Shown in pieces: positions 3,805 to 39,116 of a stretch of 64,000 nucleotides of DNA (its first letter is position 1; each line of letters begins with the position of its first letter). Where the stretch lies: assembly GCA_001730015.1 (NCBI GenBank), contig MDLA01000115.1, positions 1 to 64,000 on the forward strand, given 5' to 3'. This DNA is from Chromatiales bacterium (ex Bugula neritina AB1) (GTDB taxonomy: Bacteria > Pseudomonadota > Gammaproteobacteria > Granulosicoccales > Granulosicoccaceae). The translations under genes were made by a program, and so were the position numbers. Below the pieces are notes generated by a model. The model saw only the letters and a list, made by a program, of their open reading frames with translations, ran no database searches and was not told the DNA's origin.

Positions 3805-3806
3805 CG

Positions 3807-6800
3807 GTGACTGAACCCGGTGATAATGCGCTGACCTCGCACGATCCGTCTACCTCCTGGGTTGCGTCGGTGATTCGATGGTCAGTAAAAAACCAGTTAA
3901 TCGTTTTAATACTGACACTCGCACTGACGGTCAGCGGCTCTATAGCAGTGCTGAACACGCCCCTTGATGCGGTACCGGATCTGACCGACACACAGGTGAT
4001 TATCCGCACCGACTTTGCTGGGCAAAGTCCGCAGATTGTTGAAGATCTGGTGACTTATCCTTTATCGACCACACTGCTTGGGCTACCGCGCACTAAAGAT
4101 GTTCGTGGCAGTTCGATGTTCGGTACCAGCTTTGTTTATGTGATCTTTGAAGATGATGTCGATTTGTACTGGGCTCGTTCAAGAGTGCTGGAAGCCTTGT
4201 CGAGTCTCGGCTCGCAGCTGCCCGAAGGTGCAACACCTCAGATCGGGCCGGATGCTACCGGTGTCGGATGGGTGTATCAGTATGCACTGATAGATCGCTC
4301 CGGTAACACTGATCTGGCCGAGTTGCGCTCTATTCAGGACTGGTTTCTATCGCTCGAGCTGGCCGGGGTAGAAGGTGTCGCAGAAGTGGCCTCTGTCGGC
4401 GGCTTTGTCCGTGAGTACCAGGTGCTAATTGACCCCGATAAATTGCGAAGTTTTGATGTAACGATTGCACGAATACGCGATGCTGTCAGGCAGGCATCCT
4501 CTGAGGTTGGGGGGCGGGTACTGGAGCAGGCCGAGTCGGAGTATGTGATCCGATCATCGGGTTATATCAGTGAACGTGCTGACCTTGAAGCAGTCGTGGT
4601 CAAGGCCGCCGATGGCACTCCCGTATTGCTGCGTGATGTCGCCAGAATCGTAGAAGGCCCAGCATTGCGACGAGGTGTAGTCGATCTCAACGGTGAAGGC
4701 GAAACCGTAGCTGGCATTGTGGTAATGCGTGATGGTGAAAATGCGTTACGTGTGATCGAGCGTGTCAAAGACAAGCTTGATGATCTGAAAAATGGTTTAC
4801 CGCCTGGTGTCGAGATAGAAACGGTTTACGATCGAGCGCCCCTGATTCAGGGATCTGTCAAATACTTGATGCACAAACTGGTAGAAGAAGGTGTTGCCGT
4901 GTCACTGGTGGTATTTATTTTTCTGTTGCATGTACGCTCTTCTCTGGTGGCATTGATTACATTGCCGCTGGGAGTGCTGGGCGCTTTTTTGATCATGTCA
5001 TGGCAGGGTGTGACGGCTAATATTATGTCTTTGGGAGGTATTGCCATCGCCATTGGTGCGATGGTCGATGCGTCTATCGTGCTGGTAGAAAACGCCAGTC
5101 GCAAGCTGTCGGAGTTGCCCCGCAGGCACAGTCATAAGGAACGTCGGGAAGCGCTCCTGGCGGCGGCCACCGAAGTGGGGCCGGGCATCTTCTTTTCATT
5201 GTTGATTATTACTGTGTCTTTTTTGCCTGTATTCGCGCTCACCGGTGAGAGCTTGAGACTGTTTAGTCCCCTGGCATACACCAAAACCTACGCCATGGCC
5301 TTTGCAGCGTTGTTGTCTGTGACACTGGTGCCGGTATTGATGCTGTATCTGATGCGGGGCCGGTTTAAACGCGAGGAAGCCAATCCGCTTAATCGTTTCT
5401 TTGTTGGCATGTACAAGCCGGTGCTGCATGTTGCGCTGCGTATCAAGTGGGTTACCTTGTTTCTAGCCGTCGTGATGACGCTGAGTCTGATTTACCCGTT
5501 GCAGCGTCTGGGAAAGGAGTTTATGCCTGCGCTGTATGAAGGTGAATTGTTATATATGCCAACCACGTTGCCGGGTGTGTCGGTCACGAAAATGCGGGAG
5601 GTGCTGGGCCAGACCAATCGACTGATGCAGACGGTACCCGAGGTGGACAATGTATTCGGCAAAGCCGGCAGAGCCGATACAGCCACAGACCCGGCGCCTC
5701 TCACGATGATAGAAACCTGGATACAACTCAAGCCAAAGGATGATTGGCGTGTTGGGATGACGGTGGACGATATCATCGCAGAGCTGGATGCGAAACTGAA
5801 AATGCCGGGCTTGGTAAACTCATGGGGTTATCCGATTAAAATTCGGATGGATATGGTATCCACCGGTGTCCGGACGCCGATTGGTATCAAAGTCACGGGT
5901 GATGATCTGGCAGAGCTGGAACGAATTGCTAGAGAAATCGAATTGGCGATTACCGATGTGCCAGGCACGCGTTCAGCCTTTGCTGATCGTGTGCTCGGTG
6001 GAAAATATCTTGATCTCGTTCCTGATCGCACTGCACTGGCAAGACACAATATTGATATGGGTACCTTTCAGTCTGTGGTGCAAACGGCCCTCGGCGGGAT
6101 GCAGCTGGCCCAATCGGTAGAGGGCCGCGAACGCTATAACATCATGCTGCGTTACGATCGCAGATTTAGGGAAAGTTCACAGGACTTGCAGGATATTCTG
6201 GTACCGGCACCGAGTGGAGCACATATACCACTGGGCGATTTGGCGAGCATTCAGTACGTAGAAGGTCCTCCAATGATTCGCTCTGAGAATGCGCGTCTGA
6301 CCGGCTGGGTGTTTGTGGATATTGATGGTCGAGATATGGGTGGCTATGTCGATGAAGCCAGACAGATCGTCGCGGAACAAGTCACTTTACCACCGGGCTA
6401 TGCGGTCACATTTTCAGGCCAGTATGAACAACTACAGCGTGCCAACGAACGACTGCGAATTGCCATACCGGCAACTGTTTTGCTGATACTTGTGTTGTTG
6501 ATGCTGCATTTTGGCAGACTTGACCGTACATTGATGGTCATGGCCTGTCTGCCGTTTGCGTTAGCTGGCGGCCTGTGGGCAGTACACCTGGCCGGATATA
6601 ACTTCTCGGTTGCGGTGGCCGTCGGCTTCATCGCACTTGGCGGTATCGCCGTTGAAACCGCAGTGATCATGTTGTTGTACATCGACGGCGAAGTGCGTCG
6701 GGTCAAACCGGTTAGTCGCCATCAGCTGTTCGGTGCCATTAGCCGGGGGGCCGCGATGCGAGTGAGGCCGAAGTTAATGACCGCCATCACTATTTTTGCT

Positions 6801-7031
6801 GGCCTTGCGCCTATTTTTCTTACCGATGGACTGGGTTCGGATGTCATGCGCAGAATCGCGCTGCCAATGATCGGTGGCATGGCATCAACCGTAGTGTCCA
6901 CTTTGTTTGTTATCCCCGTGCTGTATTTTGTGTATACCGCATCTCAGCTTTCAAAACACATCGCGCAACCACGTGATGACTATTCACAACGTCAAGCAAG
7001 ACTAAAACCTGTAAGAGGCTATTATTCATGA
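3807..7031 (+). CDS. cusA: Heavy-metal RND pump CusA/CzcA family
   Basis: The 1074-residue inner-membrane proton-driven transporter, full length for the HME-RND family. It shows the N-terminal transmembrane helix followed by the TPLDAVPDLTDTQV segment characteristic of CusA/CzcA, the GGIAIAIGAMVDASIVLVENA helix pair, and Met-rich periplasmic stretches including MDMVSTGVRTPIGIKV, which contains a methionine position used for Cu/Ag in CusA. The start is GTG, three bases after the adaptor stop. The 3' end overlaps the first cusF by ATGA. It exports Cu(I)/Ag(I) from the periplasm or cytoplasm through CusBC. Metal specificity is inferred from the Met-rich sites and neighbours. Confidence 0.93.
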   Translation: MTEPGDNALTSHDPSTSWVASVIRWSVKNQLIVLILTLALTVSGSIAVLNTPLDAVPDLTDTQVIIRTDFAGQSPQIVEDLVTYPLSTTLLGLPRTKDVRGSSMFGTSFVYVIFEDDVDLYWARSRVLEALSSLGSQLPEGATPQIGPDATGVGWVYQYALIDRSGNTDLAELRSIQDWFLSLELAGVEGVAEVASVGGFVREYQVLIDPDKLRSFDVTIARIRDAVRQASSEVGGRVLEQAESEYVIRSSGYISERADLEAVVVKAADGTPVLLRDVARIVEGPALRRGVVDLNGEGETVAGIVVMRDGENALRVIERVKDKLDDLKNGLPPGVEIETVYDRAPLIQGSVKYLMHKLVEEGVAVSLVVFIFLLHVRSSLVALITLPLGVLGAFLIMSWQGVTANIMSLGGIAIAIGAMVDASIVLVENASRKLSELPRRHSHKERREALLAAATEVGPGIFFSLLIITVSFLPVFALTGESLRLFSPLAYTKTYAMAFAALLSVTLVPVLMLYLMRGRFKREEANPLNRFFVGMYKPVLHVALRIKWVTLFLAVVMTLSLIYPLQRLGKEFMPALYEGELLYMPTTLPGVSVTKMREVLGQTNRLMQTVPEVDNVFGKAGRADTATDPAPLTMIETWIQLKPKDDWRVGMTVDDIIAELDAKLKMPGLVNSWGYPIKIRMDMVSTGVRTPIGIKVTGDDLAELERIAREIELAITDVPGTRSAFADRVLGGKYLDLVPDRTALARHNIDMGTFQSVVQTALGGMQLAQSVEGRERYNIMLRYDRRFRESSQDLQDILVPAPSGAHIPLGDLASIQYVEGPPMIRSENARLTGWVFVDIDGRDMGGYVDEARQIVAEQVTLPPGYAVTFSGQYEQLQRANERLRIAIPATVLLILVLLMLHFGRLDRTLMVMACLPFALAGGLWAVHLAGYNFSVAVAVGFIALGGIAVETAVIMLLYIDGEVRRVKPVSRHQLFGAISRGAAMRVRPKLMTAITIFAGLAPIFLTDGLGSDVMRRIALPMIGGMASTVVSTLFVIPVLYFVYTASQLSKHIAQPRDDYSQRQARLKPVRGYYS

Positions 7032-14477: not shown

Positions 14478-16331
14478 TTACTCCAGTATTGTAATGGTCG
14501 GGATGACCAGGTTGCCGAGATGCCGGACCGTGCCAAATCGTGGCTTGCGTGGTTCCGGTGCACAGCGGTAGCGTCGCCATAGATTGAAGACATAAGCGCC
14601 ATCTTCACTGCGGCGATTGTCTGTCCACTGCGTGGCGAAGGCTGAATCGTCGTTGTTAGTGAGTGGGTTGGCGCTATTGATGTTGTCTTGTATTGGAGGA
14701 TTGACGTCGGGCGCTCCGAATCGATGACACTGGGTATCCTCCTGACCACCCTTCGTGTAGATCAGTTGCCAGCGCCCGGTTTCCTGTAGATAGGGTTCCA
14801 GTTGCATGGTGCTTTCAGCACGACTGTCGAGACTGGAATCAAGCGCGATATAGGCCGCATCCATCTCACGCAGGCGAGATCGATTCCTCGGTGCAGCATA
14901 CCGATAGACATGTGCCTGATTGCGGCGCGTGACGACATGGGCAGCACGGAAGGCCGTGACTGCCGCGGCCTTCACCGGATCTGCCTGCAGCAGGTAACCG
15001 TTGCGTGGATACACACTGCCGTAGTTCTGAACCTCGGCTAATCCTTCCAGTAACTCACGTGGTCCACCCACGGTACCCGGAAAAAACTCACCGACGGTTG
15101 TGCGTTTTGAAAATGGAATATAGGTTCTGGGATCGGCAATCTCCGGAATATTGAAACGCCAGGCAGGCACATTTAAACCGGATAGATAATAAGGCGAGAA
15201 CATCGTGGTATCGGAGGGACACAAGCCACGCCAGGTCATCAATTCAGCAGAGACACCAAAGCCCAGTGATGAAATCTCACCCTGCAGATCACTGAGATCA
15301 CGGGTGGATTCAAACAGTGACTGTACCTGTTCGGCCATCGCCAGTGTCTGACCGTACGCCGGTGGTGCCAGTGAATCGATAATGGATGCCGGGGTCAGAT
15401 CGGCCAGTGACTGGCGCAAGGTATCGACCACATCACCAGGCAGTCCGGCAACGTCGATGCGGGTGAGATCATTCAAGCCAACCTCTTGCCCAGTATCGTT
15501 GGGTTCGTCTATGCCCAGGTCTGTGATGGTGTCATTGGCTTGTGAGACACCGGCATCGAGCAGTCGAGTTAACAACGTTTGTTCACCCTCGTTAACCTCC
15601 CCTCGATCTATCGCCTGCTCAATACCACCGGACACTGCCGGGTCATTGGCAAGGCGGGCCAGATTCCCGGTGATGGCATTGGCGGCGACCAGTCGCGGAT
15701 TAAAATCGACGCCTTCGTTCCAGCTGTCACCGAGACGCGTACTGGCATTGGCGATGACATCCACTGCCCTGTCCGCGTTACGGCTTAGCTGTTGATTCAT
15801 CGCTCTGAAAGCGGTGCTGCCCAGTTCACCCATGTCGGGTACGCGGTTGATCTTTTGTACTCGATCAGAGACCAGTGTGAAGATATTACCGGGATGACCG
15901 AACACTTCCGTCTCAAAGTATTGCAAACCCGTGCGTTGGGTTTTCATGCCTTCGGATTGCTGACCGGACCATAGCGACACATCCCGATAGGTCTCGGGGG
16001 CATCGCGTCCGGTCAGTGCTTCAAGCACCGGTTGTGAGATCAGGTTTTGCGCCGGCCCAAAGCCAACCACACTTTCAAGGATCGGGCTGTTGCCAAGTCT
16101 TGGATAGGCAGACACCACAAAGTCAGGGTTATATTGCGCGGTGATCGGGCTGGCATAAAAGCGGATGCCTGACAGCGACAATCGCGCAAATAACGCAAAG
16201 CCTTCCAGTTGTAATTCGACACACTGTGGCTCGTTGCTTTTGGCAAAGACTTCCAGAAAGTTGGTGCGAGCCGTTGCCTGGTGTGGTAACAGGCTCAAGG
16301 TCAGTGCCGTAGCGATGATGGGTTTTGTCAT
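14478..16331 (-). CDS. Integrating conjugative element protein, PFL_4710-like (TIGR03756), enlarged
   Basis: A 617-residue exported protein (signal peptide LLPHQATART). The N-terminal part (LSGIRFYASPITAQYNPDFVVSAYPRLGNSP) and C-terminal part (CPSDTTMFSPYYLSGLNVPAWRFNIPE ... GSVYPRNGYLLQADPVKAAAVTAFRAAHVVTR) match the TraU-like TIGR03756 family. Between about residues 170 and 360 lies a hydrophilic, Asp/Asn/Ala-rich stretch that seems extra, since I recall family members at roughly half this length. ATGA overlap with the gene before it; 11 bases before the next. Confidence 0.75.
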   Translation of the reverse strand: MTKPIIATALTLSLLPHQATARTNFLEVFAKSNEPQCVELQLEGFALFARLSLSGIRFYASPITAQYNPDFVVSAYPRLGNSPILESVVGFGPAQNLISQPVLEALTGRDAPETYRDVSLWSGQQSEGMKTQRTGLQYFETEVFGHPGNIFTLVSDRVQKINRVPDMGELGSTAFRAMNQQLSRNADRAVDVIANASTRLGDSWNEGVDFNPRLVAANAITGNLARLANDPAVSGGIEQAIDRGEVNEGEQTLLTRLLDAGVSQANDTITDLGIDEPNDTGQEVGLNDLTRIDVAGLPGDVVDTLRQSLADLTPASIIDSLAPPAYGQTLAMAEQVQSLFESTRDLSDLQGEISSLGFGVSAELMTWRGLCPSDTTMFSPYYLSGLNVPAWRFNIPEIADPRTYIPFSKRTTVGEFFPGTVGGPRELLEGLAEVQNYGSVYPRNGYLLQADPVKAAAVTAFRAAHVVTRRNQAHVYRYAAPRNRSRLREMDAAYIALDSSLDSRAESTMQLEPYLQETGRWQLIYTKGGQEDTQCHRFGAPDVNPPIQDNINSANPLTNNDDSAFATQWTDNRRSEDGAYVFNLWRRYRCAPEPRKPRFGTVRHLGNLVIPTITILE

Positions 16332-16774
16332 CGTGATGCTCCGGTATTGGCTATGCGGTTGTGATCTGCGTTGATGTCGAACCTCAGTTGATCGACATGG
16401 GTGAAGGATGGCCAGGTGTTGACGACTGTGCCGGACTCATCCAGCCATACCGCTGATGGCACTTGTTGCAGTCCGTAGTGCGCCATCTTCTCTCTGGCGG
16501 AGAATGTCATCGTCCACAGGGCAATCCATACTGAGGGATCGATTTGATTGAACTGTGCTTCAAGCTGTTGTTGCCCCTCGATACCACCGATGGTGTTTGC
16601 CTGAGCTAACAGGGGTGCGGTACCGAAGGTCAATGCATCCACATGCCAGACGGTATGTTTGATCGGGAATTGACGTGTACCGATGTCGTCAGACAATCGC
16701 TTAAAGATCAGTAGCTCGTCTGCGTGTATCGAAGTAGTGGTGCATAACAGCATAAATATCGTCAGTGCTTTCAT
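16328..16774 (-). CDS. Integrating conjugative element protein, PFL_4709-like (TIGR03757)
   Basis: A 148-residue exported protein (signal near TSIHADE). The body reads like a TrbC/thioredoxin-related fold seen in TIGR03757 proteins (VWHVDALTFG, then LQQVPSAVWLDESGTVVNTW, a cis-Pro-like loop without a CxxC pair). It lies between the VirB4-like ATPase and the TIGR03756-like protein, its usual position, with ATGA overlaps on both sides. It probably acts in the periplasm during pilus assembly; this is by analogy with TrbC of F-type systems. Confidence 0.75.
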   Translation of the reverse strand: MKALTIFMLLCTTTSIHADELLIFKRLSDDIGTRQFPIKHTVWHVDALTFGTAPLLAQANTIGGIEGQQQLEAQFNQIDPSVWIALWTMTFSAREKMAHYGLQQVPSAVWLDESGTVVNTWPSFTHVDQLRFDINADHNRIANTGASR

Positions 16775-19563
16775 TCGGTACTCCCTAACCGTTGGCGACG
16801 GATGCGTTCACTGATTTCAATTGCAGCATCGAGCTCAGCCTCCTTACCGGTTAACTCCAACTCGCGACAGATATCCATGCGGGCGGCCTTTTCATGTTTC
16901 TCGGTTTGGGCGAGTGCCAGTGGTAGCGACGGCGGTACATTTCTGAACAACATTTGCAGCCGTTCCGACAGCACTACACCTTCGACATACTTGTTCGGGT
17001 TCTTCACACAGTTGAGCATCATCTGGCGCTGCTCTTCATTCAGTTCTTTAAACCGTGAAATCTTGTCGACTTCATCTTTCGGCATCGCCAGACACAGCCA
17101 CCACTCCATCATGTTCAACATGCGCTCTGCAGTACCCGGCATGTCATCGACGTTTTGGGTCGCCAGCCAGTACCAGCCACCGAGCTTGCGCCACATCTTG
17201 GTGGCCTTGATGACAAACGGCGGCAATAAATCGTTATTGAAGATCAGATGGCCCTCGTCGGTCAGCACAATGGTGTGCCGATCACTCATCTGTTCACGTT
17301 CAAGCAGCGCGTTGACGTTTTGCAGCAGTGACACGTAAGCCACTGCCAGGGTTTCTTCGTTGCCGTCTTCCGTGGCTTTGGCAAGATCGACAATGGTGCA
17401 ATCGACCTCTTCCCATAACTGACCCTCACGACGGTTGAAGAGATGGCCGTTTAAGCCATCACAAAAGAGTCGCATGGCATAGGACATCTCCAGTATCTCG
17501 CGGGAGTGATGGTGGTAGGCTTCCTCTGAGGACATCGCTTCCATCTGATCGGCCACATCCGCAGGGATCACGATGCCGTCACTGCCATATTCCTGGTAGA
17601 CCACTTCAGCGGCACGCACCAGTGCTGATCGAATGGCCAGTCGTTGTGCTCGACTTAACCGTTCTGCACCGGCACCGGAGACCATGATCTGACTGGTCAG
17701 TTCCATTTCACCGAGGTAGTCACGGGCGGCATCACCCTCTTCTTCCTGATCAATCAGTTCATCTTCAAACTCGGTGATGACTTTTTCACGGTCCTTTAGA
17801 TCCAGCAGTTTCATCGCATTGATAAACGGAGGAATGCTGATGTCTTCATCCATCGACAACCGCCTTTGATTGACGGAGACATTGAGTCGTCGCAGCCACT
17901 GACCAAACAAGCCAAACGAATTGCCCGCCTCGATAATGAACAGTCGCGGTCGATGCATGGCAAGCATGGTCGTTAACACCCATAGCAGCATCGATGATTT
18001 ACCCGCACCGGTCGGACCGAACACCAGCATGTGAGCGCTTTTGGTGCGATCCTGATAGTTCAGTGGATCAAACACCGCAGGCTCACCGGTACGGTTGAAG
18101 AAGAACATCGATGCATGGCCGGTACCGCGGCTGCGACCATAGACCGGTGCGAGGGCGGCGGCATGCGACACAAAGAACGGTTTGGATTTACGGCGGGATT
18201 TTCGGTCGTAGTACGGTGAATAGACGGCAGGTAGATTCTTCATGTAGTTATCAATCGGAATCACTTCTTTGGAAACCGGCACTGACATTAACCCCGACAT
18301 CGTCAGTTGTGTTTGTATGCGATCAAGGCGTCGCTTTAAAGTGCGGTCATCCTCGGCTCTGGCATAGATGGCCAGTTCCAGTGCGTAGATTTTGTCACCA
18401 CCGGCCTGGTGTTCGAGCACTTCTTCTGCGGTATCGCGTTTGATTTTACTGTCGGCGGTGTCTCCGACAGCACGATCACGGATGGCGGTGACGTGGTTGC
18501 TGACTTCATCTTGTGCCACCATCGTCAATGTATATGACAGCACGGTACCCTCGGGCAATTTATCCAATAGCGTACTGCCCTTGTCACGTTCACCGGTTAA
18601 GTGTCCGGGTTTTGGTTTGGTTCTGGCCGAGATCACCTGCAGTACGGCATGGGGCATATCATCAAAATACACATAGCCCTTCTCGTCATCGAAATAAGGC
18701 CGGTTCAGACACAAGAGTTCTGACAGGTCACTGCCGATGGGCAGGTCATCGTCTCCGGGGTACGGACACGCTGCTCGTAACTCATCGAGTCGTCCGCCAG
18801 TCACAGACGGACTGGGATTGAACCAGAACAGCATCCAGTAATAAAAATCCTCACCGGTCATGCGACGAAAGCGAATGCCCATCGTGTCCATGTTCGCTTC
18901 CAGGGTTTCGGTCATATCCTGCAGTTCGAGCGCGGGATCCTCGACCGGTGTGGACTCGTTGTACTTGCGGTAGATCACCATGCGTATACGCGAGGCACAA
19001 CCACCCCACATGGAACCGGTCACCATGTCATCTTCAAAGTAACCATCACCGGTGGTGACATCACGCAAATGTTCGGCATATAAATTCAGGAAGGCTTCGG
19101 TAAACTCGCTGCCTCTGGCATTGGAAGAAACATAATCGCGGACTTGTTGTAAGTGGGTATCGAGCGCCTTTTCGTTATTCACATAGAACTGCAGTACCCA
19201 CGGGTCCTGCTTGTATTCGCTAAAACTCTCGGCGAGCATGGAGGCGATACTCTCGACCGCGTTATCCATGTACTCACGGGTTCGACCTTCGGTTGGAAAC
19301 GGGTGTAATTCATAACAGGCCACCCGGGAATGACCGTCCATCAACAGCAGTTGCTGGCTGTCAGGCAGGTACTCAAGCCACGGCAACATGTCGGTAAAGC
19401 TCGGGCCACTGTCATAGGCCTGCTGCAGTCGGCTGACGGTGGGTGGAATTCTTTTTCTGTTCGTGGTGGCGGCGACCGGTGCTGTGCGTTGTGTGCTGTA
19501 GGTGGCATAGCCAAACAGCAGCACACCGCTTAAGGCGATACCGATCAGTATCATCGTCATCAT
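16771..19563 (-). CDS. Conjugative transfer ATPase, VirB4/TraC-like (TIGR03744)
   Basis: A 930-residue ATPase that powers pilus assembly and substrate transfer. An N-terminal hydrophobic helix (ILIGIALSGVLLFGYA) is followed by the TraC/VirB4 N-terminal domain and the motor domain with Walker A GPTGAGKSSML near residue 515 and Walker B VLTDEGHLIF near residue 770. Size and motifs fit the PFL_4706 family of MPF-G systems. It is coupled by ATGA to the lipoprotein before it and to the next gene. It acts at the inner membrane, cytoplasmic side. Confidence 0.92.
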   Translation of the reverse strand: MMTMILIGIALSGVLLFGYATYSTQRTAPVAATTNRKRIPPTVSRLQQAYDSGPSFTDMLPWLEYLPDSQQLLLMDGHSRVACYELHPFPTEGRTREYMDNAVESIASMLAESFSEYKQDPWVLQFYVNNEKALDTHLQQVRDYVSSNARGSEFTEAFLNLYAEHLRDVTTGDGYFEDDMVTGSMWGGCASRIRMVIYRKYNESTPVEDPALELQDMTETLEANMDTMGIRFRRMTGEDFYYWMLFWFNPSPSVTGGRLDELRAACPYPGDDDLPIGSDLSELLCLNRPYFDDEKGYVYFDDMPHAVLQVISARTKPKPGHLTGERDKGSTLLDKLPEGTVLSYTLTMVAQDEVSNHVTAIRDRAVGDTADSKIKRDTAEEVLEHQAGGDKIYALELAIYARAEDDRTLKRRLDRIQTQLTMSGLMSVPVSKEVIPIDNYMKNLPAVYSPYYDRKSRRKSKPFFVSHAAALAPVYGRSRGTGHASMFFFNRTGEPAVFDPLNYQDRTKSAHMLVFGPTGAGKSSMLLWVLTTMLAMHRPRLFIIEAGNSFGLFGQWLRRLNVSVNQRRLSMDEDISIPPFINAMKLLDLKDREKVITEFEDELIDQEEEGDAARDYLGEMELTSQIMVSGAGAERLSRAQRLAIRSALVRAAEVVYQEYGSDGIVIPADVADQMEAMSSEEAYHHHSREILEMSYAMRLFCDGLNGHLFNRREGQLWEEVDCTIVDLAKATEDGNEETLAVAYVSLLQNVNALLEREQMSDRHTIVLTDEGHLIFNNDLLPPFVIKATKMWRKLGGWYWLATQNVDDMPGTAERMLNMMEWWLCLAMPKDEVDKISRFKELNEEQRQMMLNCVKNPNKYVEGVVLSERLQMLFRNVPPSLPLALAQTEKHEKAARMDICRELELTGKEAELDAAIEISERIRRQRLGSTE

Positions 19564-19970
19564 GGCTGTTTCTCCGTTGCAGCCTGGTCTATTGATAACG
19601 TGTCTTCGGGTAACGCGTACTCATCCCGTGGATACAGCGTGACCGATGTGGTGTAACCCGGCACCGGCGCGTTGTCGCTGGTTGCGAGGTGCGGAAATAC
19701 ATAGATCGCGATCTTCGGGTTCGGTAATACCTTGAAGAGTTGTGACTGTTCGTTTAATGCATGGCGGGTATAGCCGCGATAGGCATCGGCGTCGATAGGC
19801 TGCAGTGTCGATTTTTCTGTGTACGGCCTTTGTTGACCCTGTTGACGGTGTTGCCGGTACAGCTCGCGGGATTCAATGCCGTCGGTGCGCATCGCATCCG
19901 CTACGCGCTGACTGGAACAGCCCGTGAGCAACAAGATGAGGCTAATCCAGATCAGGTTGATGTTTTGCAC
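19560..19970 (-). CDS. Conjugation lipoprotein, PFL_4707-like (TIGR03751)
   Basis: A 136-residue lipoprotein with the lipobox LLTGCSSQ. The mature part (DAMRTDGIESRELYRQH, later FPHLATSDNAPVPGYTTSVTLYPRDEYALPED) matches the small lipoprotein preceding the VirB4 gene in PFGI-1-type modules. It may serve as a VirB7-like outer-membrane core subunit. Its 5' end overlaps the previous gene by 29 bases. Confidence 0.78.
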   Translation of the reverse strand: MQNINLIWISLILLLTGCSSQRVADAMRTDGIESRELYRQHRQQGQQRPYTEKSTLQPIDADAYRGYTRHALNEQSQLFKVLPNPKIAIYVFPHLATSDNAPVPGYTTSVTLYPRDEYALPEDTLSIDQAATEKQP

Positions 19971-20784
19971 GATGGCTGTACCTCACTTGTCGTTGCGATG
20001 GTCGTTTATCAAGCCGCAGTTCCTGTTGAATATGCAGATCGACACGCTGACCGGCGGGGGCATAAATCACATCAGTGCTGATGCGGTAGCGTTGATCGAG
20101 CCATTCAGTGGTCTTATCCGCTGCACCGGACAGTGCCGAGGCGGCGGCAAATCGATTGACATCACCGGTCAGCACACGGTCGGTACCTATCAGGTCACCG
20201 TCTCGGTTAAAGCGATCACGGCTTTGGGTTTCTGCGAGTTTTAATGCCCGTGCATAGGCGGCTGCACCGGATAGCAGAAAGCTTGAGCCCAGATACTCAG
20301 GGGCGTCAGTGATCAAGCGGCCTGACACACAGGGGTTACCGTAGGGGTCTGAGATATAACCAAGTCGTCGCATCGGCTCGGCGTTGCGCTGTGGACGTGT
20401 CCCCGGGTCGCCTGGATAAAAACTCTGCACACTGCCATCGGTGAAGATAAAGGTCGCAGCAATCAGATCACCGTAGACACAGCGTGTGGTGAATTCTCCG
20501 GTGGCAAATCCCTCGAAGATCATGCCCTCGATTTCCAATGGCAGTTCATGAAAGTTGGCCGTGAGGTTTTCCCGACCGACCAGCACTTTAAAGAGGCGTG
20601 GATTCACGATGTCATTATCGAGATAGACCTTACCGACCAGGGAGGTAATGGCGATGGAATTGGCCAGTATCGAGAGATCGGGAATCGTGAACCAGGGAGT
20701 GGCGTCGGGATTGGCCAGTCGTCTTTGTTGCGCCGATGCAGATATTGAGACACACAGCAGTATGGTGAGTATGAGCGTTCTCAT
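19942..20784 (-). CDS. C-terminal half of the VirB10-like ICE protein (TIGR03752), as a separate exported protein
   Basis: A 280-residue protein with its own signal peptide (LTILLCVSISASAQQRR). The mature part (TIPDLSILANSIAITSLVGK ... FKVLVGRENLTANFHELP ... GDLIAATFIFTDGSVQS ... LGYISDPYGNPCVSG) corresponds to the C-terminal periplasmic domain of TIGR03752 (PFL_4705-type) proteins, which are normally one chain of about 470 residues anchored in the inner membrane. Here the chain is split in two genes, joined by an ATGA overlap (20781-20784). It would be free in the periplasm or attached to the outer-membrane complex. The split is read directly; family correspondence is from memory. Confidence 0.75.
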   Translation of the reverse strand: MRTLILTILLCVSISASAQQRRLANPDATPWFTIPDLSILANSIAITSLVGKVYLDNDIVNPRLFKVLVGRENLTANFHELPLEIEGMIFEGFATGEFTTRCVYGDLIAATFIFTDGSVQSFYPGDPGTRPQRNAEPMRRLGYISDPYGNPCVSGRLITDAPEYLGSSFLLSGAAAYARALKLAETQSRDRFNRDGDLIGTDRVLTGDVNRFAAASALSGAADKTTEWLDQRYRISTDVIYAPAGQRVDLHIQQELRLDKRPSQRQVRYSHRAKHQPDLD

Positions 20785-21524
20785 TTTGCCGCTCCCACCA
20801 CGCTCAGGGTTTTATGGACGAGGTTTTTTGCAGGCGTCAGTGGCGTTAACAATCGCGATTGCACCGAATCCTTCGTCACCGCGTCCGTGCTGACACTCAG
20901 TTGCTGGCGGTGATTGATGGACTCATCCAGTGGTTCAATCCAGAACACATCAATCATTTTTTCACCGGAGATAAATTCACCGGACTGCACCCCAAAACCA
21001 AAGCCCGCCGGTAGTGCGGATGCTTCCTTCGAAGGTTCATCGATCTGTTGTGCGCTGATCAATGAGGCAGCATCGCGCTCGATGCGCTGGTTCATTACGT
21101 GATTGAGTTTGTTTAGCAGCACATCCATTTTTTCTTCATGGGCCTCGCGCTGCAGGGCCAGGGTTTCTTGTTGCTGTTGCAGGGTCTCATCGAGCATCGT
21201 CTGATACCTGGCCTGCATATCCGTCACGGTATCTTCCGCATCATCTCGCTGTTGCTTAAGGGACTCATTCAGTTGCGTGACACTCGACAGCCTGGCGTTC
21301 ATCTTTTCGTACTGGCCACGCAGCGCCCGTATCGTGTCGTTGGGCGTGTCGGCATCAGCGGTCTTCGGGATTGGTGCTCGCGACATGAATCTGCCGCTAT
21401 CCGCCACCACACGCTGAGCACCCTTTTCATCTTTTTTGACGATAAAAAATACGCTCGACGCCATGGCGACAAAGACACTGGCCAGGATCGGGATGAGACG
21501 ATTGGTCTTTAGCGCTTGAGCCAT
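20781..21524 (-). CDS. N-terminal half of the VirB10-like ICE protein (TIGR03752)
   Basis: From the ATG at 21524 (an alternative ATG lies five codons upstream at 21539) this is 247 residues. A single N-terminal transmembrane helix (LIPILASVFVAMASSVFFIVKK) is followed by a long coiled coil (residues about 60-140, rich in Gln/Glu/Arg heptads) and a short domain (GFGVQSGEFISGEKMIDVFWIEPLDE). This matches the first half of TIGR03752 proteins. The stop directly overlaps the start of the next gene, which carries the missing C-terminal domain. It likely spans the inner membrane and reaches into the periplasm as the energy-sensing arm of the channel. Confidence 0.78.
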   Translation of the reverse strand: MAQALKTNRLIPILASVFVAMASSVFFIVKKDEKGAQRVVADSGRFMSRAPIPKTADADTPNDTIRALRGQYEKMNARLSSVTQLNESLKQQRDDAEDTVTDMQARYQTMLDETLQQQQETLALQREAHEEKMDVLLNKLNHVMNQRIERDAASLISAQQIDEPSKEASALPAGFGFGVQSGEFISGEKMIDVFWIEPLDESINHRQQLSVSTDAVTKDSVQSRLLTPLTPAKNLVHKTLSVVGAAK

Positions 21525-22384
21525 GGGTAGTCCGTCCATTGTTGATGAGAGATCACGACCAGACCGGTGCGTTCACCGGGTTGATTGACCGGGGATAACC
21601 AGTCACGAATTAACGCGGCGCTGAGCCAGAACTGTTTGCCGCGCATGGCGCGCGGATCGAGATGCACTGATTGATCACTGTGGTTATGCAGCACGATGGC
21701 AGTGACGAGGTGATCCACATTGCGCCACTGACCCAGTACGTGTGCAGAGATGCGGGCCCCCGGCACCAACGCGTTTAACGTCTCTCTGGTGACATTGACC
21801 GTGACCAGATCATCGAGTGGTGTGATCAAACGCGCCGGCGCATAGAGTTGTTGCATCGCATAGCGAGTTAATGCGGTGTAGGGATGGGTGACTGGTGTGG
21901 TGTCTTCATGCGCTGCTGACTCATCGGCGTCCTCGCCGCCAGCCGGTATGCGGTTGGTATCTGCTAAAGCAGACCAGGTCGGGTCAGTCGGTGGGTTGAT
22001 GTCAGTCGCCGGGTGGTTCGGGACCGACGGTGCACTCATATCATCGACAATACGTACCGGCTGAAATGCACCGCCCTCACGGGCACTCACATCGATGGCA
22101 TAGATCCGTCCGGTTTCCTTGTCTCTGAAACGGAACCGCTTCTGCTCAAACGGCCGGGCCGCACGCAGATACACAAAGCCGTTGTTGGATTCCGCACTGG
22201 CGATACCGGCCAGATCACGCGGGATGCCCACCTGCATCTTGTTCGCATCGAAGCGGATCACCCGTTCGACGCCGACAGGAATCTGGAGGGTTAAGGGCTC
22301 ACCACGCCATTGCAGTGTAGTATCGGCGATGGCGGTCGACAGGAGACTGATGCTCAGTACCAGCAGGATGATCAGCGCTTTCAT
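21509..22384 (-). CDS. Integrating conjugative element protein, PFL_4704-like (TIGR03749), TraK-like
   Basis: A 291-residue exported protein (signal peptide ending near TAIADTTLQ). The sequence LQWRGEPLTLQIPVGVERVIRFD near the mature N-terminus and the C-terminal segment (GARISAHVLGQWRNVDHLVTAIVLHN ... LSAALIRDWL) match TIGR03749, which occupies the TraK/VirB9 place in MPF-G systems. ATGA overlap with the upstream gene. It is likely a periplasmic or outer-membrane core component. Confidence 0.78.
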   Translation of the reverse strand: MKALIILLVLSISLLSTAIADTTLQWRGEPLTLQIPVGVERVIRFDANKMQVGIPRDLAGIASAESNNGFVYLRAARPFEQKRFRFRDKETGRIYAIDVSAREGGAFQPVRIVDDMSAPSVPNHPATDINPPTDPTWSALADTNRIPAGGEDADESAAHEDTTPVTHPYTALTRYAMQQLYAPARLITPLDDLVTVNVTRETLNALVPGARISAHVLGQWRNVDHLVTAIVLHNHSDQSVHLDPRAMRGKQFWLSAALIRDWLSPVNQPGERTGLVVISHQQWTDYPWLKR

Positions 22385-23022
22385 GAGTCACGCTCCGACA
22401 CAGCCTCTTCTATGATGCTTTCCTGCATACCCACCGGATAGCCATCGATGGCGAGCCCCCAGACATTCTTGGTCGGGCTGATGTTCATCTTTAAGACGCG
22501 CAACGGGTAGTGCACACCCACGCGTTTCACCTCGACCCGGTCAACGCGCTCGACAATAATCAGCCGGACATGCACCAGCCAGGAGCCGTCATCGAGTGAC
22601 TGCACATTGTCTTCATCGTAGGTGGTACCACCAATCTCAAGCGTGTAGCGCTCGCGTCCGTTGAGTTCGCCGGCGGCCGCCTTGTTCTCAATATCATCGA
22701 GCAACCACTGCCGATAGCGCGGTGTCAGATACGCCTGCAGATGAAAGAGCTTACGGCCATAATCCACCGCACCGTCTTCCTCCCACCGGTGCAGTTCGCG
22801 GAAGGTACTCTTGGCAAATGCTTCAATGGTCGCGGCGATATATTCACCGGGTTTGACCACGGCACCATGACGCAGATCGGGAGGTATGGTGATGCGCAGG
22901 TTCTCGGGTGACTTCTGCCGGCCGTACCACAACCCCAGACATCCCGTGAGTAATACCAGGATCGCGAAGTACAGGGTTTTGATGTGCGCGTCCTTGGCAT
23001 CGCGCTCGGCGGCATACTTCAT
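22381..23022 (-). CDS. Integrating conjugative element protein, PFL_4703-like (TIGR03746), TraE/VirB8-like
   Basis: A 213-residue protein with a short cytoplasmic N-terminus, one transmembrane helix (TLYFAILVLLTGCLGLWYGRQ) and a periplasmic domain (TIPPDLRHGAVVKPGEY ... TFRELHRWEEDG ... DGSWLVHVRLIIVERVDRVEVKRV). Its layout and place match TIGR03746, a TraE/VirB8-type scaffold of the secretion channel. Both ends overlap neighbours by ATGA. Confidence 0.8.
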   Translation of the reverse strand: MKYAAERDAKDAHIKTLYFAILVLLTGCLGLWYGRQKSPENLRITIPPDLRHGAVVKPGEYIAATIEAFAKSTFRELHRWEEDGAVDYGRKLFHLQAYLTPRYRQWLLDDIENKAAAGELNGRERYTLEIGGTTYDEDNVQSLDDGSWLVHVRLIIVERVDRVEVKRVGVHYPLRVLKMNISPTKNVWGLAIDGYPVGMQESIIEEAVSERDS

Positions 23023-24567: not shown

Positions 24568-25230
24568 CTACATATACTTTTTATAGCGATACGTCATCGC
24601 CATGATGGTGCCGCCAAAGAACATCGCGAACGGCAATACCACCACGTTGGGATTAATCGACCAGGGCCAGGTCAGATACACCACCCAGGAGCCGACAAAG
24701 CCCATCGGTACCAGCCGCATAAACAGATGAAAGAGCCCGGAACTCTCGCGCCCGCCACCCCATTTTCTTAACTCCCGATTCACCAGTCCCCGGGTCGCCC
24801 CGACACAGGCAAAGAACACATACACCGGCATTGAGAACAGCATCACTGCCAGTCGCAACATAAACACCATGATGATGTTCAGCGTGGCATCGATATAGGC
24901 ACCCATCACCACGAAGTGCTTCGCCAGAAATCCTAAACCGAGGTCGATCAGGAATACTCGGATCACCGACACGCCATCCAGCACCCATTCATCCATGTGA
25001 CCGATCATCGGGTTTAGCTCGCGATGCCGATCTAAGTAAACGAGTTCTGTGGCGACCATCTGCCGACTCTTCTCTGCGCCCTGCTCTGCCCAGAAAAATG
25101 TCATACCCAGCCACTCAATCACAATAGACAACGCCAGTGCCGTGATCAGTACACCCAACAGCCTGACCACCGTACTGGCCACTGCATAGACCAGTCCGTG
25201 AGCGGGGGCACTGACCGGATGCGTACTCAT
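24568..25230 (-). CDS. Integrating conjugative element membrane protein, TIGR03747-like (PFL_4697)
   Basis: A 220-residue protein with four hydrophobic segments (VVRLLGVLITALALSIVIEWLGM; VFLIDLGLGFL...; LRLAVMLFSMPVYVFFAC; VVLPFAMFFGGTIMAMT). It matches the membrane protein encoded directly after TraD in PFGI-1/SXT-related elements. The start overlaps the traD stop by ATGA. It is thought to be a coupling-protein partner; its exact role is not known. Confidence 0.8.
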   Translation of the reverse strand: MSTHPVSAPAHGLVYAVASTVVRLLGVLITALALSIVIEWLGMTFFWAEQGAEKSRQMVATELVYLDRHRELNPMIGHMDEWVLDGVSVIRVFLIDLGLGFLAKHFVVMGAYIDATLNIIMVFMLRLAVMLFSMPVYVFFACVGATRGLVNRELRKWGGGRESSGLFHLFMRLVPMGFVGSWVVYLTWPWSINPNVVVLPFAMFFGGTIMAMTYRYKKYM

Positions 25231-27263
25231 GCGTCATACCACTCCGCACGGCTTTGATAGCGACGACGCATTGCATCACCCATCTGCCGGATGGAATCCG
25301 GGAAGTCACCATAGTTTCTAACCCGCCACGGGAAATTCAGCTTGATGATTCGACCCCCCTCAATGGACGCAAAGGCATGACCAGTCGGTAGTGACATCAC
25401 CATGTTGGGTGTGATCATGTCAGTCTCGACACTGGTGACACGATCTTCATTGCTGCTGACAAACACCGAGCCGTCGAGCATGTTGTCGGTGTCTCTGGCT
25501 TGCGTGATATTGATCATGCTCACCGTTTTGACTTTCGGGACCTGATCAGTCAGCAGGGAGGCCGTTTCGGTATTCTTGATTCTAAACATCACCAGGCTGT
25601 TGAAGTTGGAGGTGACGACATCTCGCTTTGCGCGATTGCCCAGGGCCACTTCAAAGTCTTGTACGGTTTGTGAATAGGCCGCCACCCCGACACCGGCACC
25701 GCGTATCTTGTTGACCATCGGGATGAACTCATCCCCCATCAACGCATCCACCTCATCCATATGCAGCCACACGTTAAACGACTCGTCCGGGATGCCACCG
25801 GGGATATCGCCCAGTACCCCTTCCTTGTAAATGCGTGAGGCGGTGGCGACGAGATCGGATAACATCGCCTTACCGGTGGCCTGTGCCACCATGTGTTCTG
25901 CCATCGCATCGAGACCGACGTAGACGATTTGTCGTCGGCGAATCACCTGCTCCCAGTCGAGTAACTGACGACCACTTTTAATGGCTTCTGTACTCGGACT
26001 CATGATCAGATCCAGTTGTCCAGAAGTCATCTTGTCCAGCAACGGCCTGACCGAGGCAACCAGCTTGCGGTAGTAACCGGGATCCATCCGTGCGGTTTCA
26101 TAAAGATCGCGAAGGATGTCATTACCATCGAGCAGATCACTCCCCTCACCGGCAAGGACTGCGAGCATGGCAACCTCCTCACGCGTCCTGCCCCGGTCTT
26201 CCTTCGCCTTGTTCAATGCGGTATCGAACAGAGACAAGCGCTCACTTTTCCGCAATTGATGCTTGCCGTAGCGGCACATGAGCCCACCCATATCCGAGAT
26301 GTAGCGTTTAATGGCGTTGAGATTCGCAGGCTCCCCCATCGCATCACAGACACGAACAATCAGGTTGATGAACTGCCAGCCGAATTCTCTGAATACCGCA
26401 GACTCACCATCGCCCGGTAACTGTCTTGCCAGTCGCGAGGCAATCTCGGTAATCCGGGTGTAGTTGCCGGTCGCATCGTACATGGCTGAAACGTCCGGAA
26501 ACCCGAGATGAAAGATCACCAGATCATCGCCCCGACCGGCGCGGTGGGCTTCGGCATACATGGTTTGCATCAGTGAGGCAGAGCCCTTCGGATCAAACAC
26601 GATCACGACATCTTGTGAGGATCGATGAATATCCTGCATGACCAACATTTCGAGCGCTTCGGTTTTACCGGTGCCGGTGGTACCGGCAAAATACATGTGC
26701 TGCCGACGTTCGCGCAGACCGATACTCTGTGCCCGTCGCCTACCTTCCACCCCGTGCAGACAGCTGTCACCAAACAAGGTGGATCTCGGTGGCCATGGAT
26801 TGAACATGGAGTAACTGCCGGTAAACCGGGTCAGCAGCTTGATGACTGGCAGTTTTTTGAGCCCCTTTTCAATCTTTCTGACCGTGTAATATTCCTCACG
26901 CTTGATATAGTGTTTGTATTGATTATCGAAGGTGTCGATGTATCGTTGCGTGTGTTTCTGGCCCCACTCGAAACCTTCACCAAGATACAGCCGATCATCG
27001 TAGACAGGTACGCGTTTGTTGTTGATCTGCAGCGGTTTCTCACGACTCATGCGCCGGCGGTAACGGAGGATGCGGCAGCCACGCCAGACATCATAGAGAC
27101 CGAGTAGAATAAAGAATGCCGCACAACCGCCCGCCACCACCGGCGGCATCATCAATACCTGTGGCAGTTGCAGCAGAATAAAGGCCGCAGCAAAGGTCAC
27201 AATCGCCGCATAGAATTCCACCGCCGGACGCAACAGCACTTCGATCTGATACTTGTCACTCAT
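25227..27263 (-). CDS. traD: Conjugative coupling factor TraD (SXT/TOL type)
   Basis: A 678-residue type IV coupling protein that delivers the DNA-relaxase complex to the channel. Two N-terminal transmembrane helices (FYAAIVTFAAAFILLQLPQVL; VVAGGCAAFFILLGLYDVW) precede the ATPase domain with Walker A AGTTGTGKTEALEML, VVIVFDPKGSA (Walker B-like) and a second acidic motif WLHMDEVDALMG. The start at 27263 is chosen because it overlaps the previous stop (ATGA). Length and motifs fit the SXT/TOL subfamily. No relaxase partner is present in the window. Confidence 0.92.
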   Translation of the reverse strand: MSDKYQIEVLLRPAVEFYAAIVTFAAAFILLQLPQVLMMPPVVAGGCAAFFILLGLYDVWRGCRILRYRRRMSREKPLQINNKRVPVYDDRLYLGEGFEWGQKHTQRYIDTFDNQYKHYIKREEYYTVRKIEKGLKKLPVIKLLTRFTGSYSMFNPWPPRSTLFGDSCLHGVEGRRRAQSIGLRERRQHMYFAGTTGTGKTEALEMLVMQDIHRSSQDVVIVFDPKGSASLMQTMYAEAHRAGRGDDLVIFHLGFPDVSAMYDATGNYTRITEIASRLARQLPGDGESAVFREFGWQFINLIVRVCDAMGEPANLNAIKRYISDMGGLMCRYGKHQLRKSERLSLFDTALNKAKEDRGRTREEVAMLAVLAGEGSDLLDGNDILRDLYETARMDPGYYRKLVASVRPLLDKMTSGQLDLIMSPSTEAIKSGRQLLDWEQVIRRRQIVYVGLDAMAEHMVAQATGKAMLSDLVATASRIYKEGVLGDIPGGIPDESFNVWLHMDEVDALMGDEFIPMVNKIRGAGVGVAAYSQTVQDFEVALGNRAKRDVVTSNFNSLVMFRIKNTETASLLTDQVPKVKTVSMINITQARDTDNMLDGSVFVSSNEDRVTSVETDMITPNMVMSLPTGHAFASIEGGRIIKLNFPWRVRNYGDFPDSIRQMGDAMRRRYQSRAEWYDA

Positions 27264-27673
27264 TGGCGCACCCGCCCTGCCCGTGCATCGATCAGTATGG
27301 GATACACCGGTCCATAGTGGTCGACCGCCCACGCACCCGGCAGCGCCATCAACGGTATGGAGGAATATTGACGGAGTATTTCAAGCTGTTCGAATGACTC
27401 CACATTGACAACAATGCCAATCGCCCCCAGTGACCGTAGGTAATCCTCGTTAATCGTTAACCATTGTCTGGAAATCTCATCGGCGCCGATAATCGCAATC
27501 GAGCGTAACGGGGCGTAGTCGAGCTTGCGATCAATGACACCAATCGCCGCCTGCATGCCCGGCGTCTCGACGGGAAAGGTCATCTCTGGCGCACTAAAGC
27601 CCTCATAGACTCCCCCTGCCAGTACCTGACAACCGCAGAGCAAAGTGGCGGCTAGAAGACTCGGTCGAACCAT
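27260..27673 (-). CDS. Integrating conjugative element protein, TIGR03765-like (PFL_4695)
   Basis: From the ATG at 27673 it is a 137-residue exported protein (signal LLAATLLCGCQVLAGG). The mature part (MTFPVETPGMQAAIG, LGAIGIVVNVESFEQLEILRQY, PLMALPGAWAVDHYGPVYPILID) matches TIGR03765 proteins encoded between the lytic transglycosylase and TraD. It overlaps the upstream gene by 22 bases and TraD by ATGA. The C-terminal fold is reminiscent of TrbC/thioredoxin-type proteins. Periplasmic; role unknown. Confidence 0.78.
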   Translation of the reverse strand: MVRPSLLAATLLCGCQVLAGGVYEGFSAPEMTFPVETPGMQAAIGVIDRKLDYAPLRSIAIIGADEISRQWLTINEDYLRSLGAIGIVVNVESFEQLEILRQYSSIPLMALPGAWAVDHYGPVYPILIDARAGRVRQ

Positions 27674-30646: not shown

Positions 30647-31510
30647 TTACCCACCAAGATAAACGGATACAATCTGTTTTCTTTCATGTCCTAACTCACG
30701 AGAGATAACTTGTCTTGCCGCTTCATCTTTCTGACGATCAGCATCATGCATCTTTGAGGGTGGTAAACCGCCGTTGGCCACACACTGAAAGCCGGTTAAC
30801 TGTTCATAGCGCATCTGTGCATAGTGATGTCTTGCCCCATGTGATTTGCCAAGACCAGCAGCTAACATTTCTTTCTCGAAGATTTTGACAAACTGTCTGT
30901 AGGTCTTATCTGCTGGAATTAAGCTGCCACTTCCTGCAACCGCATGGGCTTGCCTTAGCGCCTCTTCCTGTGATTTAAAAAGGATGGGCACCTCACGCCC
31001 TCGCCCACCTTTCGCCCACGACGGATATATTTTTATATGCGTGGCATGATGAGCCATTGAGGGTTTGAACTTCAGCGCCTCTTCACGTCTGAGCCCGAAT
31101 TCACGCTGCAACAAAGCCGCACAACGAACGTGCTCGTGCTGAATTCGATTCATCTTCTCGTCAGTGAATTCGAGGCTGCGGTTATGTCCGATATACTCTC
31201 GTCGAGCAATGCCGTAGTCGTCGTTGCGCTTCACCAGAGATCGGTTGTTGGTTTTTTCGGCCAGCCACCGTAAATGCGACAAACGATTCTTCATGGTTGC
31301 ATTAGACAAACCCTGATCTGACCAATGCTGCACCAACGCGTAAACATGTTTGGGCTTGAGATTATTCGCGTTTGAAATACGACGATAATTGAGTTCGTGC
31401 AACTGATTAGCCACCAATTGCAGCACTCTTCTACGTGCCGCCTGTGTCGCGTATGCCCCGTCTTTATTCCGATCACACAATGCCTTCAAGCTCCAGTTTA
31501 ACTTTCTCAT
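30647..31510 (-). CDS. Tyrosine recombinase/integrase of the Integrase_1 type
   Basis: A 287-residue DNA recombinase. The N-terminal part (residues 1-115) is a SAM-like core-binding domain and the rest a catalytic domain of the Integrase_1 (PF12835) kind common in PFGI-1 islands. Catalytic residues can be read: Arg in EFGLRREEALKF, HGARHHYA (His-x-x-Arg), LGHERKQI (His) and a Tyr in VSVYLGG at the very C-terminus. It lies upstream of the conjugation operon in the same direction. It may be the element integrase or an internal resolvase; no att site is assigned. Confidence 0.85.
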   Translation of the reverse strand: MRKLNWSLKALCDRNKDGAYATQAARRRVLQLVANQLHELNYRRISNANNLKPKHVYALVQHWSDQGLSNATMKNRLSHLRWLAEKTNNRSLVKRNDDYGIARREYIGHNRSLEFTDEKMNRIQHEHVRCAALLQREFGLRREEALKFKPSMAHHATHIKIYPSWAKGGRGREVPILFKSQEEALRQAHAVAGSGSLIPADKTYRQFVKIFEKEMLAAGLGKSHGARHHYAQMRYEQLTGFQCVANGGLPPSKMHDADRQKDEAARQVISRELGHERKQIVSVYLGG

Positions 31511-32969: not shown

Positions 32970-33827
32970 TTAGGAATTCAGATAATCTGCGATCTGGGGA
33001 GTACGGTATCCATCTTCTCGCCACAGTATCGGAAAATAATTCTCATCCAAATGGTTGTCACCAAGTCGCTTGTAGCGACTGTATATTGGTCCGATTCCCT
33101 CATTGAAATTCAAGGGATCATACTCTACAGCCGCTTGCATTGCGTGAAGCACTAGCGCACGTCGGGGTTTTAATCCAGAATTCTGTCCTGAACCGTGCCA
33201 AGTCCAGCCATGATGGAAAGAACCACCACCAGCTGGCACTTCAATATGTACGATATCGGGTTTAACACCGGCTTTCGCAGCTGCTTCCCGCATGGGTAGC
33301 CTATAATCCTCCGGTGCGTGAAAGTCTCCTGCTGGTTTCGATTCTGCCCACCGATGTGAACCTCGGACGAGTTCCATTGTACCGCCGCCAGCGCTGGTTT
33401 CGTCGAGTGCAATCCAGCAGGTTAACAGATCAGACGGTGTAAACCATGACAAGTAGGCGGAATCCTGATGGTAGCCGAGCGATTTCACTCCGACCGGCTT
33501 CCACAGTACGTTATCGATCATGATGCGTACGCCAGACCATCCTGCCAATTCTGCAATGGCACGGGCAATATTCTCATCCAACACGACACTGGCTATTTCC
33601 CGGTTTGCCTTCCAGCCATTGGAAATCTGTCGGGTCAGGCTCGGATCGCCATCGACATTTTGCCAATTAACTTCATCTGGACGAACGCCGGTTTCGAAGC
33701 GTCCAGAAAACAATTCATCAAACGCACGGTGCAATGCAGGCAGGCGATCTGTATCGACTATACGATCTATCACCAGTAAGCCATCACGCTGAAATGTGGA
33801 TTCATCTTCTACGGATATATCTATCAT
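32970..33827 (-). CDS. Phytanoyl-CoA dioxygenase (PhyH) family protein
   Basis: A 285-residue Fe(II)/2-oxoglutarate-dependent oxygenase. The metal ligands are visible as HQDSAYLSW (HxD) near residue 120 and the distal His in FHHGWTWHGSGQNSG, followed by the 2-oxoglutarate Arg in KPRRALVLH. It hydroxylates an unknown small molecule in the cytoplasm. It is the last gene of a leftward group with an SDR and an acyl-CoA dehydrogenase, which suggests oxidation of an acyl or aromatic substrate. Confidence 0.85.
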   Translation of the reverse strand: MIDISVEDESTFQRDGLLVIDRIVDTDRLPALHRAFDELFSGRFETGVRPDEVNWQNVDGDPSLTRQISNGWKANREIASVVLDENIARAIAELAGWSGVRIMIDNVLWKPVGVKSLGYHQDSAYLSWFTPSDLLTCWIALDETSAGGGTMELVRGSHRWAESKPAGDFHAPEDYRLPMREAAAKAGVKPDIVHIEVPAGGGSFHHGWTWHGSGQNSGLKPRRALVLHAMQAAVEYDPLNFNEGIGPIYSRYKRLGDNHLDENYFPILWREDGYRTPQIADYLNS

Positions 33828-33875
33828 TAGCTGAATTGAAGTTAAACAAGTGAATTAGGGTGGAAAGAAATCTTG

Positions 33876-34640
33876 CTACTTCGGTGCCATTCGAATTGCA
33901 CCGTCCATTCGAATGACTTCTCCATTTAGTAATTGATTGCGACAAATTTCTAAAACCAATGATGCATACTCATCAGGATGGCCAAGTCGTTTTGGGAACG
34001 GCACTTGCCCTGCGAGACTTACCTGTGCTTCTTCAGGAAGACCAAGCAACATCGGCGTAGCCATTAGACCTGGAGCGATAGTCATTGATCGAATTCCGAA
34101 GCTTGCGAATTCTCTGGCGGCCACAAGATTCAACGCTACGATGCCGCCTTTAGATGCACTATAAGCAGCTTGTCCTATCTGTCCATCATAGGCTGCAACC
34201 GAAGCAGTGTTGACAATTACTCCTCTCTCACCATTTTCATCCAGCGCGTCAGCCGGTATTAGCTGCTCAGCAAATAGCCGAATCATGTTGTAGGTGCCGA
34301 CAAGGTTGATATCGATAATTTTCTTGAAATCAGACAGCGGACTTGCACCATCGCGAGATACGATCCGCTGTGGTACCCCGATACCAGCACAGTTAACGAG
34401 CAACCGTGCAACCCCGTGCTGCTTCTGCGCCCTGGATAAAGCTTCCATTGGCGAATCTTCATCCGCTACATCGCATAGCAGCCCGAGCGCACCCGTTTCT
34501 GAGGTGATTGCATCCAGTGCTTGCTGATTAACATCAAGTGCCGCCACTTTCATGCCCTGTTCGCACAGACTTTTTACGGTTGCGGCCCCAAGACCAGAGC
34601 CGCCACCAGTCACTATTGCTGATAGACCAGATACATTCAT
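33876..34640 (-). CDS. SDR oxidoreductase, 3-hydroxyacyl-CoA dehydrogenase type
   Basis: A 254-residue short-chain dehydrogenase. The Rossmann motif VTGGGSGLGAATVKSL is at the N-terminus, a cofactor-choosing acidic residue in ALDVNQQ suggests NAD, and the catalytic Ser, Tyr and Lys lie in NTASVAAYDGQIGQAAYSASKGG. It resembles HSD17B10-type 3-hydroxyacyl-CoA dehydrogenases. In the CouN-like step of hydroxycinnamate degradation it would oxidise the 3-hydroxyacyl-CoA made by the crotonase. The pathway role is inference from neighbours. Confidence 0.85.
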   Translation of the reverse strand: MNVSGLSAIVTGGGSGLGAATVKSLCEQGMKVAALDVNQQALDAITSETGALGLLCDVADEDSPMEALSRAQKQHGVARLLVNCAGIGVPQRIVSRDGASPLSDFKKIIDINLVGTYNMIRLFAEQLIPADALDENGERGVIVNTASVAAYDGQIGQAAYSASKGGIVALNLVAAREFASFGIRSMTIAPGLMATPMLLGLPEEAQVSLAGQVPFPKRLGHPDEYASLVLEICRNQLLNGEVIRMDGAIRMAPK

Positions 34641-34681
34641 AAATTATTCTCTTTTAGTTCGTTTTTTGTAGCGATTGATGT

Positions 34682-38135: not shown

Positions 38136-38138
38136 CGC

Positions 38139-39032: not shown

Positions 39033-39075
39033 GCAGTCTCCTCTGATCCAGGCAAGTTACATCACAACGAAAACC

Positions 39076-39090
39076 GTTATACAATATAAC
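39076..39090. promoter_or_regulatory. Candidate operator between divergent catabolic operons
   Basis: GTTATACAATATAAC is a perfect interrupted palindrome (GTTATA-caa-TATAAC) in the 84-base space between the amidohydrolase and crotonase starts. AT-rich palindromes of this size are typical of MarR-family binding sites. Assignment to the MarR regulator at 47 kb is a guess. Confidence 0.4.
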
Positions 39091-39116
39091 AAATAATTCT
39101 GCCATGCGAGACCACT

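Follow-up and report, generated by a model that had tools for sequence, protein, structure and literature searches.

A TraB/VirB10-like protein of an MPF-G-type secretion system that is encoded by two overlapping genes and probably acts as two chains

Introduction

VirB10 has been described as the only known T4SS subunit that bridges the complex in the inner membrane and the core in the outer membrane (reviewed in PMC12857230). It has been described as an ATPase sensor (PMC12624023, PMC4182333). VirB10, TrwE and F TraB are alike in having an inner-membrane anchor, a periplasmic stalk and a C-terminal domain. In VirB10, the I-layer part and the C-terminal domain, which lies in the O-layer, are connected by a long linker, and the two layers touch each other at few points (PMC6362355). 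In the R388 system, VirB9 contacts VirB10 in both layers: its N-terminal domain grips a helix of VirB10 in the I-layer, and its C-terminal domain packs against that of VirB10 in the O-layer (PMC9259494).

Among the GI-T4SS, or MPF-G systems, TraB/VirB10 is represented by the TIGR03752 family, which includes PA14_59920 and p1056.43/lgiL of ICEHin1056, the latter listed as traB/virB10 (PMC3864950). Members are encoded between TIGR03749 and TIGR03751/TraC. In one H. pylori genome, the VirB10-like protein ComB10 is listed as a pair of adjoining genes under two accessions, NP_206842-NP_206843 (PMC2653234), a break that may be a simple frameshift or may carry a signal sequence. In a literature search that covered mostly open-access papers, no account was found of a VirB10 split in two and having a signal sequence.

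Results

The window, that is, the whole stretch of 64,000 nucleotides that was analysed, contains the conserved gene set of MPF-G/GI-type T4SS in the conserved order: TIGR03754, TIGR03747, RAQPRD, TIGR03745, TIGR03750, TIGR03746, TIGR03749, the two halves of TIGR03752, TIGR03751, TIGR03744, a gene for a 148-aa protein, TIGR03756, TIGR03755 and TraG_N. Several of the matches fall under the family cut-offs, as expected for a divergent element. The features used below are as follows.

25227..27332, minus strand: TraD coupling protein TIGR03754 (profile match)
22381..23022, minus strand: TIGR03746 (PFL_4703) integrating conjugative element protein (profile match)
21509..22384, minus strand: TIGR03749/DUF3438 protein, weakly TraK-like (profile match), proposed scaffold for both halves
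20781..21539, minus strand: N-half of the TraB/VirB10-like TIGR03752 protein
20781..20784, minus strand: ATGA stop/start overlap
20731..20784, minus strand: predicted signal sequence of the C-half, MRTLILTILLCVSISASA (from hydropathy)
19942..20784, minus strand: C-half of the TraB/VirB10-like TIGR03752 protein
19560..19970, minus strand: TIGR03751 lipoprotein (profile match), overlapping the end of the C-half
16771..19563, minus strand: TraC/VirB4-type ATPase TIGR03744 (profile match)

The TIGR03756/TraU-like protein (14478-16331, minus strand) is predicted to carry a large extra region, because it is 617 aa long against a model of 298 positions, and its match is divided between two stretches, of which residues 364-591 give the better one. 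The transfer genes are adjoined by a metal efflux set at 660-7031 on the plus strand, consisting of an outer-membrane factor, a CusB-like adaptor and a CusA/CzcA pump, and these three genes are possibly cargo. Elsewhere in the window are a phage replication protein O match and two integrase-type genes, one matching Integrase_1 with an N-terminal SAM-like domain and the other Phage_integrase (together at 30647-31510, 51635-52630 and 53125-54138, all minus strand), as well as a catabolic-type block at 32970-50902 with genes for a phenol 2-monooxygenase family protein, an acyl-CoA dehydrogenase, an amidohydrolase, an arylsulfatase, an acyl-CoA synthetase and a TRAP transporter.

A sequence-only reading of this DNA had proposed that a VirB10-like protein is split here into two genes, and the family profile bears this out. 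Two overlapping minus-strand open reading frames, 21539..20781 (252 aa) and 20784..19942 (280 aa), match consecutive parts of TIGR03752, a model of 471 positions with a curated cut-off of 241 bits. The N-half covers profile positions 1-190 (62.4 bits, 4.6e-17) and the C-half positions 221-471 (244.5 bits), so that the C-half exceeds the cut-off by itself. The N-half consists of a transmembrane anchor, a coiled coil, a conserved GFG..W-I-E-P-L-D segment and a tail of 47 residues, and the C-half of a signal sequence followed by the C-terminal (TrbI/VirB10-type) domain; of these parts, the same reading had named the anchor, the coiled coil, the signal peptide and the C-terminal domain. The N-half would be 247 aa long if translated from the second ATG at 21524, and this is the more likely start since it agrees with that of a single-chain relative (L005, MAAIRVNK...). 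In place of a single chain inserted in both membranes, which is a trait of VirB10/TrbI proteins, the sequence predicts that the anchor and the C-domain are two proteins, the latter exported on its own.

The likeness of the C-half to VirB10 is modest by profile. PF03743 matches it with 17.6 bits (E 0.0035), below the gathering score of 35; among the TIGR03752 family members scanned, three of 11 match this profile at E<=0.01, the best at 1.6e-5. In hhalign comparisons, the last part of the C-half domain aligns with the C-terminal domain of F TraB (score 29.5, with shuffles reaching at most 21.8, over 104 columns and at a probability of only 10.8%), and the comparison with R388 TrwE (13.7) stays within the shuffled range. 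Sequence searches of the PDB found no VirB10 relative, and an AlphaFold2 model of the C-half built from two sequences was unusable (pLDDT 36). Homology of the C-half with VirB10 thus appears modestly supported. For the TIGR03749 protein, hhalign gave 22.2 against F TraK (shuffled maximum 20.6) and nothing above the shuffles against R388 VirB9. The sequence support for its proposed role as a TraK/VirB9-like scaffold is weak, below that for the VirB10 homology of the C-half.

The genome has one other TIGR03752 locus, which belongs to a diverged second element on contig C145, which is 19.9 kb long and breaks off within TraC. It shows the same split, with halves of 252 and 285 aa, the same ATGA overlap and the same type of signal sequence; at both loci, profile positions 1-471 are covered by two open reading frames and by no one continuous protein. 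Between the two copies, the N-half has a dS of 1.31 and a dN/dS of 0.112, and the C-half a dS of 1.09 and a dN/dS of 0.086 (0.061 for the mature part and 0.38 for the signal part). Judged by these ratios, which are similar to those of the neighbouring transfer genes (0.04-0.18), both halves are under purifying selection in two diverged elements. The occurrence of the split in the second element argues against both chance and a base-calling error, and a sequencing error or decay is very unlikely because the junction has persisted at a dS of 1.1-1.3 with a dN/dS of 0.11 for the N-half and 0.06 for the mature C-half.

The C-half begins with MRTLILTILLCVSISASA|QQ, that is, with a basic residue, a hydrophobic core and an A-S-A cleavage-type site. 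The assignment as a Sec-type signal sequence, with cleavage probably after ASA, was made from hydropathy and from the motif by eye. The core reaches a 12-residue Kyte-Doolittle mean of 2.77 in the window and 3.35 in the C145 copy. Among the 34 single chains with a locatable start of the C-domain (eight others lacking this mark were left out), the strongest 12-residue stretch between the coiled coil and the C-domain is 1.75. The signal sequences of the two copies agree in 10 of 23 aligned residues, compared with 88% identity for the mature domains, and in both the start is basic, a hydrophobic core follows and A stands at -1; together with the dN/dS of 0.38, this is the pattern of a segment that would be kept for its type and not for its sequence. 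LLC is common to both and the surrounding DNA is similar, which in these two copies points to a single gain of the signal sequence, earlier than the separation of the elements. Upstream of the second start, the VVGAA codons of the N-half gene contain a G-rich, Shine-Dalgarno-like stretch in both copies (GGGAG or GGGGG); in the window it is GGGAG, 7 bases before the C-half start.

Single chains of the family contain the same N- and C-terminal regions as the two halves. Between the W-x-x-P-L-D motif and the C-domain, they have a linker of 42-95 residues (14 members in which both marks were found), which varies freely and is Gly/Ser-rich in the nearest relatives. The split N-half lacks the Gly/Ser stretch and stops 47 residues past the motif. 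In the mature C-half, about 14 residues lie between the predicted cleavage site and the conserved TIPDLS. The break lies in, and removes, the variable linker that joins the I-layer and O-layer parts in VirB10; a stop/start and a signal sequence stand in its place.

That relatives are single chains, as the sequence-only reading had stated, holds for all of those gathered. Homologues were sampled from up to 1298 genomes, some of them searched repeatedly, and they form a sample and not a full census (L005-L059, with a twice-fetched locus counted once and L036, whose match runs off a contig end, left out of the counts). All 42 other homologues that lie wholly inside their loci are single open frames of 433-558 codons, and the split was found again only on C145. 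These single chains include one from the same genus (L009, genome G013), two from the same family (L008 and L010), one from a Robiginitomaculum metagenome-assembled genome (MAG) (L005, 2116-3768), and those of ICEHin1056 and four other plasmid records. In ICEHin1056, the gene at the place of the two halves, as matched here by gene order, is p1056.43, a frame of 475 codons. The possibility that the TIGR03752 model was built from two proteins is ruled out by the 42 single frames.

The C-domain is 51-53% identical to its closest homologues, and the two closest relatives of the split pair, L005 and L009, are both single chains. A tree was built from 43 C-domains, those of the two split copies and of 41 single chains, with one near-copy left out. 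In it, the split pair forms one group (100/98) that is sister to L005 and L009 (joint clade 100/99), and this joint clade sits inside a clade of single chains. Because the split pair is nested in this way, a single origin of the split would be the simplest history. A scan of a genome contig collection for relatives found L005 alone, and a search of viral contigs found none. Robiginitomaculum is an alphaproteobacterial genus, and L005 is the closest relative outside the genus of the window, its sister L009 being from that genus; horizontal transfer or binning could account for its presence in this MAG.

Discussion

In this MPF-G (GI-type) secretion system, the two genes most likely encode a TraB/VirB10-like protein of the outer-membrane complex that functions as two chains, and comparison of the two copies with each other and with the single-chain relatives gives good support to the working two-part design that the earlier reading had suggested. 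We propose that the ancestral chain was cut once, in the variable linker, and that the C-terminal part acquired its own Sec signal sequence. The N-half would remain in the inner membrane, with its coiled coil and W-I-E-P-L-D segment extending into the periplasm, and the C-half would be exported separately and form the outer-membrane ring. Coupled, near-equal synthesis of the two halves would be favoured by the ATGA overlap. Both proteins would act in one machine and be connected non-covalently, and the likeliest joint is the TIGR03749 (TraK/VirB9-like) protein, with each half bound to a different domain. R388 VirB9 binds both parts of VirB10, and if the TIGR03749 protein is the VirB9/TraK counterpart, it could keep the two halves together non-covalently. 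VirB10 bridges both membrane complexes (PMC12857230), whereas no single chain can do so here. It is fairly probable that this conjugation-type secretion system has no chain reaching from the inner to the outer membrane, and that a non-covalent contact, perhaps made by way of the TraK/VirB9-like subunit, carries the VirB10/TraB link and any energy signal.

Energy transfer by protein-protein contact, also part of the earlier reading, may take place through such a joint. The halves could instead be parts of the same machine that do not communicate, the C-half serving only as outer-membrane channel and the N-half only in the inner-membrane complex, with the bridging and energy-sensing role lost or moved to another subunit. 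The linker is gone, any contact between the halves is hypothetical, and the N-half is least conserved in the tail that follows W-I-E-P-L-D (64% identity, dN/dS 0.19), all of which would fit such a loss of coupling. However, the W-I-E-P-L-D segment itself is identical in both split copies and almost unchanged in L005 and L009, and this sequence argument suggests a retained periplasmic contact. We regard uncoupled halves as unlikely.

It is rather improbable that the secretion system is heading for loss, or serves a role other than conjugation, with the split as one tolerated change. In the draft, incomplete assembly, no match to a MOBH relaxase (PF07514) was found, nor one to a MOBF relaxase of the TrwC type (PF08751), and the sole PF03432 relaxase match lies on another contig (C168:93072-93446), with none near the element. 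The element may therefore be incomplete or dependent on another element, and conjugative transfer is only putative. As the assembly is a draft, this absence is weak evidence for loss, and the transfer genes that were measured are intact, with dN/dS values between the window and C145 of 0.04-0.18 at a dS of 0.76-1.87, and of 0.053 for the coupling protein.

A fused chain could also arise by programmed -1 frameshifting at the overlap, since the junction in the window reads GCA AAA TGA, and a tRNA could slip one base back on A AAA TGA into the second frame. At C145, however, the junction reads GCA CAA TGA and lacks the A run, so that the two copies have no slippery site in common, and fusion would place a signal-type hydrophobic segment in the middle of the periplasm; we consider this very improbable. 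Adjacent frames that cover one family model in order could also come from what is normally one gene, interrupted by a frameshift, a premature stop or an error of assembly. The same junction in a second copy at a dS of 1.1-1.3, the missing linker and a signal sequence of some 18-24 residues, which is absent from single chains, leave this next to no probability, and with the dN/dS values the second copy rules out a sequencing error or pseudogene.

In this sample of homologues, the split form of TraB/VirB10 is confined to one draft genome of 207 contigs with a contamination estimate of 5%. VirB10 is regarded as a sensor of ATP use at the inner membrane that acts on the gate in the outer membrane (PMC12857230, PMC12624023), hence the interest of a split between these two ends. 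If the proposed arrangement is true, the covalent bridge would be dispensable in at least one lineage, and a natural, selected split would mark a cut point for asking whether the parts of VirB10 must be joined.
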